57,080 bases of DNA, taken from NCBI GenBank assembly GCA_014382905.1, contig JACNIU010000332.1, positions 1 through 57,080 on the forward strand, in the 5' to 3' direction. The translations under genes were made by a program, and so were the position numbers. The notes beneath the pieces are model-generated. The model saw nothing but the letters and a program-made list of their open reading frames with translations, had not been told where the DNA came from and searched no databases. Of the stretch, positions 22,552 to 26,258 are shown one piece after another; position 1 is the stretch's first letter, and each line of letters starts with the position of its first letter. This stretch comes from Desulfobacterales bacterium (lineage in GTDB: Bacteria; Desulfobacterota; DSM-4660; Desulfatiglandales; Desulfatiglandaceae).

Positions 22552-24138
22552 GTGCCCCCTGAACATATCAACCCCGAAAAAAGAAACTTTGGCCGTGCGG
22601 CCGGGATCGTCAGTTTTTTTACCTTCCTGAGCCGCATGCTCGGCCTTGCTCGGGATATGGTTTTGGCAGCGCTTTTTGGATCTGGTATGGTTGCGGACGC
22701 CTTTTTTGTGGCGTTTCGCATTCCTAACCTGTTGCGCCGTCTCTTTGCAGAAGGCTCTCTCACCATCGCCTTTATTCCGGTATTCACCGAGTACCTGACC
22801 CTAAAGACCAAACAAGATGCCTTTGACTTAGCAAGAATTGTACTGACAGTACTCTCTATTATCCTGGCGGTCGTAACACTGCTCGGCATTCTTTTTTCAC
22901 CGTGGATCGTCAGAATCCAGGCATTTGGTTTCGGGAGTTCCGGGATCAAATATGACCTAACCGTGCTGCTGACACGCATCACGTTCCCCTATATATTCTT
23001 TATCAGCATCGTGGCTTTCTTTATGGGGGTTCTTAATTCTCTAAGGCGTTTCGCCGCCCCGGCCGCTGCCCCCATTTTTCTGAATATGGGTATTATCGGC
23101 GCAGCATATCTGATTTCCCCTCACTGTGACGCCCCAATTGTCGGCGTAGCCATAGGTGTCCTAATAGGCGGGGCCCTGCAGGTAGGCTTACAGATTCCAT
23201 GGGTTATGAAGGAAGGGCTCAGGCTTTTTCCCAAATGGCAACCAGACCATCCTGCCCTGAAGAGAATCGGCCTGCTTATGCTCCCGGCGATTTTTGGCTC
23301 CGCCGTATACCAGTTCAACCAGTTTGTAGGGACACTGTTAGCTTCATTCCTACCAGAAGGCAGTGTTTCGTGGCTTTATTATGCTGACCGTCTTGTTCAG
23401 TTTCCATTAGGCATATTCGCCATCGCCATAAGTACTGCCGCGCTGCCTTCCCTTTCCGCAGAGGCAGCGAAAAACGACCTTAACCGGTTTCAAGGCACCC
23501 TCAACCATGCCCTGTGTCTTGTGTTTTTCATCACTTTGCCATCCATGACAGGGTTGATCATACTTGGCAAGCCGATTGTCCAGCTTCTCTTTCAAAGAGG
23601 CGCCTTCGATGCACACGCATCTGTTATGACAGATTATGCCCTTCTGTATTACACGTTGGGACTATGGGCGTTTTCCGGGATCAGGGTCATGGTTTCAGGT
23701 TTCTATGCCCTCCAGGACACAAAAACCCCCGTAAAGGTGGCTGTTATTGCGTTGGTGGTCAATCTAACTTTAAGCCTGGCGCTCATGGGCCCCATGAAAC
23801 ACGGGGGGCTCGCACTCGCCCTTTCCATCGCTTCGGCTGTCCAGTTTTCGCTTTTAATTGTTCTCCTGAAGAGGAAAATCTCGATGATGAATCTGAGGCC
23901 GCTTCTAATGTCTGTATTCAGGTCTGTCCTGGCGGCCTCGGTGATGGGGCTGGCGGTCTATTGCTTTCACTCCAGGTGGCCGATTGCCGGTCCGGGAACG
24001 GGGCTCACCGCTATGGTTACCCGCTTAGCCGCACTTATCATCATCGGGATCATCGTTTATTTTGGCGCCGCCCTTATTTTAGGTTGCAGCGAAATCGCAT
24101 TTGTCAGGGAGGCCTTTTCCCGTAAGGTCAGACGATGA
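22552..24138 (+). CDS. murJ: Lipid II flippase MurJ
   Basis: A 528-residue polytopic inner-membrane MOP-superfamily flippase with about 14 hydrophobic segments. It moves undecaprenyl-linked peptidoglycan precursor to the periplasm. Family text: FFTFLSRMLGLARDMVLAALFG, ADAFFVAFRIPNLLRRLFAEGSLTIAFIPVF, LPSLSAEAAKNDL, LVFFITLPSMTGLIIL and GFYALQDTKTPVKVA. Essential Arg/Asp pairs in the first helices (SRMLGLARD) are present. The start codon is GTG at 22552 with AAGGA upstream. Next to rpsT, as in many proteobacteria. Confidence 0.95.
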   Translation: MPPEHINPEKRNFGRAAGIVSFFTFLSRMLGLARDMVLAALFGSGMVADAFFVAFRIPNLLRRLFAEGSLTIAFIPVFTEYLTLKTKQDAFDLARIVLTVLSIILAVVTLLGILFSPWIVRIQAFGFGSSGIKYDLTVLLTRITFPYIFFISIVAFFMGVLNSLRRFAAPAAAPIFLNMGIIGAAYLISPHCDAPIVGVAIGVLIGGALQVGLQIPWVMKEGLRLFPKWQPDHPALKRIGLLMLPAIFGSAVYQFNQFVGTLLASFLPEGSVSWLYYADRLVQFPLGIFAIAISTAALPSLSAEAAKNDLNRFQGTLNHALCLVFFITLPSMTGLIILGKPIVQLLFQRGAFDAHASVMTDYALLYYTLGLWAFSGIRVMVSGFYALQDTKTPVKVAVIALVVNLTLSLALMGPMKHGGLALALSIASAVQFSLLIVLLKRKISMMNLRPLLMSVFRSVLAASVMGLAVYCFHSRWPIAGPGTGLTAMVTRLAALIIIGIIVYFGAALILGCSEIAFVREAFSRKVRR

Positions 24139-24171: not shown

Positions 24172-25164
24172 ATGACAAATATTCTTAATATTGCCGACAC
24201 GATCCCTCAACCGGTTGCACTGAAGGATATTGATGATTCTCCGGGCCCCTGTTGCATGAGTTTCGGATTCAATCTTACGCCACTGATTCAGTCAATCGAA
24301 AACGTAGACCTCATCAACCCTCCGATACTGAGAAAGGACAACCAGGGAAACATTACCATCATTGCCGGTTATCGGAGGATCAAGGCAATGAAATCATTGA
24401 AAAGAGGTCGCGCGGCATGCCGGATTTTATCCGGGCGAGATATCTCCCCGCTGAAATGCCTCCAATTAAATCTCTACGACAATCTTTCCATAAGGACACT
24501 GAACCAGGTGGAAAAGGCAATGATTTTGACCCGGCTTTCCTCTTTGGTTTCGAGGGATGAAACAATGGCGTATTACATGCCATTGCTCGGTCTTCCCTCT
24601 AACGAGGAAACCCTTCTTTTTTTCCTGCGTGTTGAAAGAGATCTCGGAAAAACGGAAAAGGAATTCCTTGCACAAGGGAGGCTCTCATTGCAGGCAACAA
24701 AGATGCTTTTGGAGGTGGACGAAGCATCCAGATCCGCCATTCTCGGTTTTCTTTCTGATATAAAGTTGAACACGAATCAACAAACGCAATATATTGATTA
24801 TTTAATTGATTTAGCCCATATCGAATGCAAATCCATTCCTCAGATATTGGGAGAGAAGGTCCTTACAGGAATATGTTCAGACACGTATATGAATGGCCCT
24901 CAGAAGGGAAGGGCGATACTCAGGAATCTGAGGGCCAGACGCAACCCTTCACTTGTCAGCGCCGAAAAAAGGTTCAATAAAACGCTCTCCGGTCTGAATC
25001 TCCCGGTGGGAGTTCAGGTAAATGCCCCGCCATATTTTGAGGGGACGGATTACAGGCTTGAGGTTCTTTTCAAAGAAGGCAAGGACCTGAGAAAAAAGTT
25101 GCAGGTCCTGTACCAATCAGAGGGATTGAGCAACTTGGGCAACCCGTGGGGGAAAAAGTCCTGA
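24172..25164 (+). CDS. ParB-like nuclease-domain protein
   Basis: A 330-residue protein with an N-terminal ParB/Srx-type domain: the NPPILR box (residues 49-54) and AGYRRIKAMKSL at 65-76, where classical ParB has GERRxxA; here the Glu is Tyr. A KorB/ParB-like helical region (LNQVEKAMILTRL, LSLQATKMLLEV) follows, then a C-terminal part I do not recognise. The start at 24172 is preferred to a GTG at 24145, although no ribosome site is strong. It overlaps the next gene by one base (TGATG), so the two are translationally coupled. It is isolated from parA and any origin genes, so it is probably not the chromosome partition ParB. DNA or nucleotide binding is likely; function unknown. Confidence 0.75.
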   Translation: MTNILNIADTIPQPVALKDIDDSPGPCCMSFGFNLTPLIQSIENVDLINPPILRKDNQGNITIIAGYRRIKAMKSLKRGRAACRILSGRDISPLKCLQLNLYDNLSIRTLNQVEKAMILTRLSSLVSRDETMAYYMPLLGLPSNEETLLFFLRVERDLGKTEKEFLAQGRLSLQATKMLLEVDEASRSAILGFLSDIKLNTNQQTQYIDYLIDLAHIECKSIPQILGEKVLTGICSDTYMNGPQKGRAILRNLRARRNPSLVSAEKRFNKTLSGLNLPVGVQVNAPPYFEGTDYRLEVLFKEGKDLRKKLQVLYQSEGLSNLGNPWGKKS

Positions 25165-26258
25165 TGCCCGGGGTAAACATCAAAAGGATACTTGTGGAAG
25201 AAGACGCCAGACCATATGGCCTCACCCAGAGGATTTTAAACCGACTCCCGAATGTCCCTGTTGAACCGGTCAGCCGCCAGGGACCTGTTGAATCCCTCCG
25301 TCATCTTGTTGCAGGCAAGGAAACGCTGTACTTATCAAGCCACAGGGGCAATTTGTTGAAACCCTGTCCCGGAACCAAAGAGTACATCTGCTGCGGATAC
25401 CAGATCCTCAATCTTGCGGCCAATTGTCCCCTTGACTGCAGCTACTGCATACTTCAATTCTACTTTCTCAACCAACCTTATTTAAGGATTTTTGCGAATC
25501 TGGAAGACAGGCTCGGGCATTTTCTTAACGTGATCGACAATGAATCCGGCCAGATCTTCAGAATCGGGACCGGTGAGTTCACGGACAGCCTTGCCCTCGA
25601 CCATATAACGCACTGGAGCGATCTTCTTCTTCCCCAGTTTTCAAGGCGAAAAAATGCGGTTTTGGAATTGAAGACCAAGACGACCCAGATCAATAGACTG
25701 CTCGCCTCCAGGTACAGAGATCGGATTATCGTCTCATGGTCCCTCAACAGTTCCCAGGTCTCTGCACGTGAAGAAAGGGAAGCAGCAACCATAAAGAAGA
25801 GAGTCGAAGCAGCAAAGCGATGCCAGGCTGAAGGTTTTACCTTAGGCTTCCACTTTGACCCGCTTGTCCATCACCCCGACTGGAGAGATGGATACGTAAA
25901 GACAATAGAATTGCTGGATAAATACATCGACCCCCGGGGGATCATCTGGATCAGTATGGGCTCCCTCAGATTCATGCCGGGTCTTAAACCGATTATCAGG
26001 AAACGGCATCCGAAATCCACCATCCTCAACGGAGAATTCATAGTAGGTCTAGACGGAAAGGTACGATATTTCAAGGCAATCAGGACAGATTTATACTATT
26101 TTATGCGGGAACAGCTGGAGAAATGGTACCCGGATTTGGGCCTTTATCTCTGTATGGAGTCAGATGAAGTGTGGCAGACGAGTATGGGGTGGACCCCTGA
26201 AACGTCGGCAGGGCTGTGCCATTATCTGGACAGACGTGTGCTGAAGTTTTTTGGGTAG
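25164..26258 (+). CDS. Radical SAM protein of the spore photoproduct lyase (SPL) family
   Basis: A 364-residue protein. The [4Fe-4S]/SAM motif is C88-x3-C92-x2-C95 in NCPLDCSYCILQ, followed by QPYLRIFANLEDRL, which matches the SPL pattern (PYxRxxxNxxD), and later LALDHITHW, LELKTKTTQI, SWSLN and LGFHFDPLVHH. SPL repairs the thymine spore photoproduct in Bacillus and Clostridium. This organism shows no sign of sporulation, and the residues I align with the SplB hydrogen-transfer pathway look altered (GTGEFTDS where SplB has a Cys, Ile after the third cluster Cys). The start ATG at 25164 overlaps the ParB-like stop; a GTG at 25146 is possible. A DNA-directed radical reaction is plausible, but the substrate is unknown. 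Confidence 0.8.
   Translation: MPGVNIKRILVEEDARPYGLTQRILNRLPNVPVEPVSRQGPVESLRHLVAGKETLYLSSHRGNLLKPCPGTKEYICCGYQILNLAANCPLDCSYCILQFYFLNQPYLRIFANLEDRLGHFLNVIDNESGQIFRIGTGEFTDSLALDHITHWSDLLLPQFSRRKNAVLELKTKTTQINRLLASRYRDRIIVSWSLNSSQVSAREEREAATIKKRVEAAKRCQAEGFTLGFHFDPLVHHPDWRDGYVKTIELLDKYIDPRGIIWISMGSLRFMPGLKPIIRKRHPKSTILNGEFIVGLDGKVRYFKAIRTDLYYFMREQLEKWYPDLGLYLCMESDEVWQTSMGWTPETSAGLCHYLDRRVLKFFG

Follow-up and report, generated by a model that had tools for sequence, protein, structure and literature searches.

Spore photoproduct (SP) lyase, SPL, acts on a thymine dinucleotide, and its hydrogen donor (Cys141 in Bs, Cys140 in Gt) works with a tyrosine, Tyr99 in Bs and Y98 in Gt (PMC3742179). In clostridial SPL the donor, C74 (Ca), lies across the pocket, on its opposite wall (PMC5368176). 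On the side of ParB, proteins with an orphan ParB-CTPase fold have been described outside parAB (Kaljevic et al. 2025, PMC12704722), in a paper whose main text mentions neither photoproduct lyase nor radical SAM. For an association between ParB-like and SPL-like proteins, we found no description in the open-access literature, subscription papers lying outside the search. A further point of comparison is the synthesis of base J, in which thymine is oxidised by an O2-dependent dioxygenase and then glycosylated. To our knowledge, glycosylated DNA is not known from the organisms considered here.

We describe a probable core-genome module, distributed in at least two phyla (Desulfobacterota and Omnitrophota), which joins a ParB-fold protein, an SPL radical SAM enzyme that appears catalytically re-tooled, and a glycosyltransferase, and for which no described function was found in the open-access literature.

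The ParB-like/SPL-like gene pair and its proteins

The pair was identified in a Desulfobacterales bacterium, in a window (the whole stretch of DNA analysed) of 57,080 nucleotides, taken from a draft assembly of 500 contigs. The following features define the locus:

22552..24138, forward strand: murJ-like gene, ending 33 bp before the ParB-like start
24172..25164, forward strand: ParB-like protein gene, 330 aa + stop (24172-25161, stop TGA 25162-25164)
25162..25166, forward strand: TGATG stop/start overlap, base 25164 being common to the ParB-like TGA and the SPL-like ATG
25164..26258, forward strand: SPL-family radical SAM protein gene, 364 aa + stop (25164-26255, stop 26256-26258)

The original prediction had described a pair of genes overlapping by one base and lying far from parA or sporulation genes. 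The overlap is evident in the TGATG, which suggests that the two genes may be translationally coupled. The isolation of the pair is likewise confirmed: the ORFs just upstream read in translation as leuS, lptE, holA, rpsT and murJ, and no Spo0A was found in the window's genome, on which ground a link of the pair to sporulation was rejected. The murJ-like gene is possibly co-transcribed with the ParB-like gene; it lies outside the module, as the upstream neighbour varies among other lineages.

The SPL-like protein matched Pfam SPL (8e-30, 104 bits, passing a cut-off of 27), and its model superposed on solved SPL 4fhc with a TM of 0.79/0.84, bearing out the predicted SPL-like identity. The model has a mean pLDDT of 94, and its six top structure matches are all solved SPL, the remainder being weak. 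Scores against the curated families were far lower than their cut-offs, at 109.1 bits for TIGR04070 (equivalog cut-off 400) and 31 bits for TIGR03886 (cut-off 437.55).

The protein shares with SplB (TIGR04070 / PF20903) its fold, the radical SAM CxxxCxxC (C88/C92/C95, invariant in 50 aligned family proteins), the Tyr of the SAM site (Y94) and an SPL-type Lys172. In contrast to SplB, the donor-Cys site is occupied by Glu138, within an invariant G137-E138, and the relay-Tyr site by Ile96, Ile being the commonest residue of the family at this position. TIGR03886 SPL family proteins (cyanobacteria and others), which belong to the same superfamily, differ in having kept both the donor Cys and the relay Tyr. 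The family additionally contains extra cysteines relative to SplB, with C68, C77 and C330 invariant, and C76 nearly invariant, across the same 50 proteins. In the alignment, C68 falls on the residue mutated in 4rh0 (S76C), and may correspond to the clostridial C74 donor site (PMC5368176). In a tree whose deep branches are weak and some of whose branches are long, the SPL family, including its Omnitrophota members, resolved as one clade (support 98/99), distinct from SplB, from TIGR03886 and from the other paralogues. The Bacillus-type hydrogen donor has been lost from the SPL-like protein, although its residues do not imply a total loss of lyase capacity. Judged by its sequence, the protein is not a classical SP lyase, and the label "spore photoproduct lyase" is probably wrong for this clade.

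The ParB-like protein is built from three parts:

N-terminal: ParB/Srx-fold domain with GYRR (residues 66-69) and D103-N104
Following region: ParB/Noc-like helical (HTH) region
C-terminal: part with a conserved PPxFE element

Taken alone, the protein falls below the Pfam ParB_N cut-off, and also below curated cut-offs. For the family, 54 of 62 members match ParB_N at E <= 0.01, and the profile matches solved structures of Noc (2e-26) and ParB (1e-24). The model (pLDDT 94.5) also matches ParB/Noc structures, so that the ParB-like identity originally proposed holds on both counts. TM values for these matches are modest (0.2-0.4 by query length), which we read as a multi-domain protein whose domains may be arranged differently. 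Both the ParB nucleotide fold and an HTH-like region are present by profile and model, and the similarity to DNA-binding ParB/Noc extends beyond the nucleotide domain.

The family resembles chromosomal ParB/Noc (TIGR00180, TIGR04285) in its N-terminal nucleotide fold, GxRR and (E/D)N motifs, and HTH-like helical region. It differs in that the NPxQPR element has been lost, the Glu of GERR is mostly Tyr or Phe, and the ParA-binding motif LG(R/K)GL was found in none of 79 family proteins. A separate canonical-type ParB is present in most relatives, and the family is like the orphan ParB-CTPase-fold proteins in having a ParB fold outside parAB.

Distribution and gene order of the three families

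We examined 148 relatives, and identified the pair throughout the family, the order and the phylum. Cultured carriers among the named matches include Desulfacinum infernum, Desulforhopalus and Desulforhabdus. Co-occurrence was assessed in 63 genomes of the same phylum outside the order (G085-G147), using a profile search that separates full-length ParB-like members from partial canonical-type ParB matches. The ParB-like family was present in 34/34 SPL-positive genomes, two of these occurrences (G121 and G139) being partial frames, and in 0/29 SPL-negative genomes. The Fisher p is ~1e-18 by genome and ~7e-13 at the family level, values in which shared ancestry is not factored. The pairing is far above chance, and even within one genus G098 has none, and G135 all three, of the genes discussed here. 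The original prediction had proposed looking for co-occurrence across Desulfobacterota, and had staked the idea on conservation beyond close relatives; both are what we found.

We identified 85 distinct ParB>SPL junctions, with a gap of 20 bp or less in 74 and an overlap of 1 or 4 bp in 49, the overlap count being somewhat favourable, since the choice between alternative start codons took into account, in part, how near they were to the stop codon upstream. We discarded apparent fusions in L094, as well as long ORFs in L077 and L089, which seemed to result from gene calls that were over-extended or in the wrong frame.

Clustering of the neighbourhoods additionally identified a GT2 glycosyltransferase whose gene, in several families of the phylum, immediately precedes the pair. 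Its orthologue occurs in 32/34 SPL-positive genomes, whereas the 29 others gave a single full-strength match, in G130, and one weak match besides, in SPL-negative G116; the co-occurrence holds at the family level too. The GT2 gene immediately precedes the ParB-like gene in 17 junctions and the SPL-like gene in 20, nine of the latter with a 4-bp overlap. In many lineages the three families co-occur as neighbours, arranged GT2>ParB>SPL. Thus, of the two-component module initially envisaged, the conserved association in non-sporulating Desulfobacterota stands, but the limit of two components does not, as the GT2 co-occurs and co-localises about as strongly. In the window's genome this third gene is on a different contig from the pair:

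G000:C464:4874-5695 (locus L122): GT2 orthologue

It follows genes whose translations read as dus and a fusion of ispH with S1. Elsewhere in the order, several genomes have the GT2 orthologue ~1-3 kb from a canonical-type parB. The protein resembles polysaccharide glycosyltransferases, with chondroitin synthase the best match, and among PHROGs it is closest to O-antigen-conversion glycosyltransferases; no PHROG match was annotated as a DNA glucosyltransferase.

Beyond the phylum, the SPL family was identified in 50/117 Omnitrophota genomes. The GT2 is present in 38 of these 50, against 1/20 SPL-negatives tested, and lies immediately upstream of SPL in many of them; the full GT2>ParB>SPL order is also seen. 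A full-length ParB-like protein was found in 21/50 SPL-positive genomes, against 2/20 SPL-negatives tested. Where the ParB-like gene is not beside SPL, in Desulfobulbaceae and Omnitrophota, it is mostly elsewhere in the same genome. In KSB1, a ParB-SPL pair was found at one locus (L174). Not every part of the module is obligatory, as shown by the Omnitrophota genomes with SPL and no full-length ParB-like protein, and by the occurrence of GT2 without the pair, in G130 and several Desulfobacterales-type relatives. G085 and G124 (family f7) and locus L263 have the SPL-like and ParB-like families and no GT2 orthologue, possibly representing a variant of the module without glycosylation. The G085 SPL-like protein has a Phe aligned at the C68 position.

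The module genes are situated amid core genes that differ by lineage, including dus/ispH-S1, purC, asd, ssb and IHF/HU-like genes (identities mostly read from translations). In Desulfobulbaceae, by the same kind of reading, SPL precedes ssb, and the ParB-like gene comes directly after a small, co-directional IHF/HU-like gene (L223, L224, L227, L230, L231 and L232). The Omnitrophota neighbourhood is a peptidase/TPR operon, and in L234, L269, L274, L275 and L276 the ParB-like gene is inside a conserved run of genes whose translations read as membrane-peptidase-like, TPR-like and BatD-like. As candidates for a fourth conserved partner, the purC-, asd-, SDR-, nifU-like, hydroxybutyryl-CoA dehydrogenase-, ssb- and ihf-like genes were rejected as lineage-specific synteny.

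Relatives of the module were absent from viral contigs, phage records gave matches of 20-24% only, plasmids contained distant SPL families only, and none of the three proteins matched a PADLOC model. A mobile element or defence island was rejected on these grounds, and the module seems to serve a housekeeping function and to be inherited vertically.

Possible functions of the module

All three proteins belong, as diverged members, to superfamilies already known. It is very likely that the three genes work together as a single functional module, and that its SPL-like enzyme is something other than a Bacillus-type SP lyase. An action on nucleic acid can reasonably be inferred from the SPL and ParB folds. 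Tentatively, and as the foremost of several possibilities, we propose a modification of nucleic acid, mainly DNA, in which a base would be activated without oxygen and then glycosylated under the guidance of a ParB-fold clamp. The ParB-like protein would act as a clamp-like binder of nucleotide and DNA and recruit the SPL-like enzyme, whose 5'-deoxyadenosyl radical would convert a pyrimidine into a substrate radical, Glu138 and the extra Cys standing in for the hydrogen donor and relay of SPL; glycosylation of the activated base by the GT2 would follow. The whole route would parallel that of base J, but without a need for oxygen. The likeness to base J and other hypermodified-base syntheses is hypothetical and consists in the combination of a base-activating enzyme, a glycosyltransferase and a DNA-binding part, the difference being a radical SAM enzyme here in place of the O2-dependent dioxygenase.

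This modification is favoured by the co-occurrence and adjacency of the three families, the SPL fold, Lys172, the ParB/Noc fold, the DNA-related genes beside distant SPL-like proteins with a Glu at the donor site (considered below), and the IHF/HU-like and ssb neighbours read from Desulfobulbaceae translations. It is disfavoured by the resemblance of the GT2 to polysaccharide glycosyltransferases, by the position of the three genes among core, and not restriction/modification, genes, and by the dispensability of individual parts in some genomes. If correct, it would represent a new way of making a glycosylated base anaerobically, and the ParB fold would gain a new role. We are more doubtful of a broader proposition, that this is an oxygen-independent, chromosomally encoded hypermodification of DNA or RNA in anaerobic bacteria, directed to chromosomal sites by the ParB-fold clamp, and that Desulfobacterota and Omnitrophota carry an unreported glycosylated base.

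The earlier suggestion of a DNA-modification or DNA-repair module is thus retained in part: nucleic-acid action is reasonable from the folds, but classical photoproduct repair has become less likely, since the donor Cys and relay Tyr of the Bacillus enzyme (PMC3742179) are replaced by an invariant Glu and by Ile. A different form of repair can be envisaged, in which the SPL-like enzyme reverses a pyrimidine lesion with C68 as hydrogen donor, the ParB-like protein brings that enzyme to DNA, and the GT2 belongs to a separate process sharing the operon. The proximity of the fold to SPL structures with bound lesion agrees with this, as do the ssb and IHF/HU-like neighbours in Desulfobulbaceae, and C68 may provide an alternative Cys near the clostridial donor position, given its alignment with 4rh0 S76C and the placement of C74 on the opposite pocket wall (PMC5368176). 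We nonetheless think repair unlikely, as it offers no explanation of the link to GT2, which is of about the same strength as that to ParB, and endospores are not expected where Spo0A is lacking.

The polysaccharide synthases that are the nearest relatives of the GT2 point to another pathway, in which it would build an envelope or lipid-linked glycan, the SPL-like enzyme would carry out radical chemistry on an intermediate, either nucleotide-activated or linked to lipid, and the ParB-like protein would be an NTP-sensing regulator. The murJ-like and lptE-like genes upstream in the window would suit such a role, and ParB-fold proteins include the small-molecule kinases SerK and SbnI. However, murJ and lptE are not conserved as neighbours outside close relatives, the best structure match of the SPL-like protein is by a wide margin a nucleic-acid lyase, and the ParB-like protein resembles DNA-binding ParB/Noc beyond its nucleotide domain; a glycan pathway is in our view improbable.

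RNA could alternatively be the substrate, with a modified tRNA or rRNA nucleotide being glycosylated on an acceptor group made in the radical SAM step. A core, mostly single-copy, chromosomal distribution is typical of RNA modification genes, and in the order, including the window's genome, the GT2 gene follows genes whose translations read as dus-like (tRNA-dihydrouridine synthase) and ispH/S1-like. This neighbourhood may be incidental, though, and a search for an RNA-binding domain found none; where studied, ParB-fold clamps and SPL act on DNA, and we consider RNA hypermodification quite unlikely. Finally, a vertically inherited linkage of three housekeeping genes without shared function, for which the mostly vertical inheritance and the ability of GT2 and the ParB-like protein to occur apart from SPL might speak, is very hard to reconcile with all three pairwise adjacencies in different lineages of two phyla, frequent 1-4 bp overlaps, and joint absence even within one genus.

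Distant SPL-like paralogues

We additionally identified a second, distant SPL-like group, whose members have Glu where SPL has its donor Cys, together with an LC-E-W element (L277:8960-10270, L278:5802-6992, L280:35-925 and L279:5522-7609). The L278 gene has genes for DNA polymerase B and DUF6079 nearby, the L280 gene is near a DUF1156 DNA methylase, and the L279 gene, whose product has a long N-terminal extension, is near DarT. This group looks defence-linked, and its methylase, polymerase B, DUF6079 and DarT neighbours indirectly suggest a nucleic-acid substrate for the wider set of Glu/LC-E-W SPL-like proteins.
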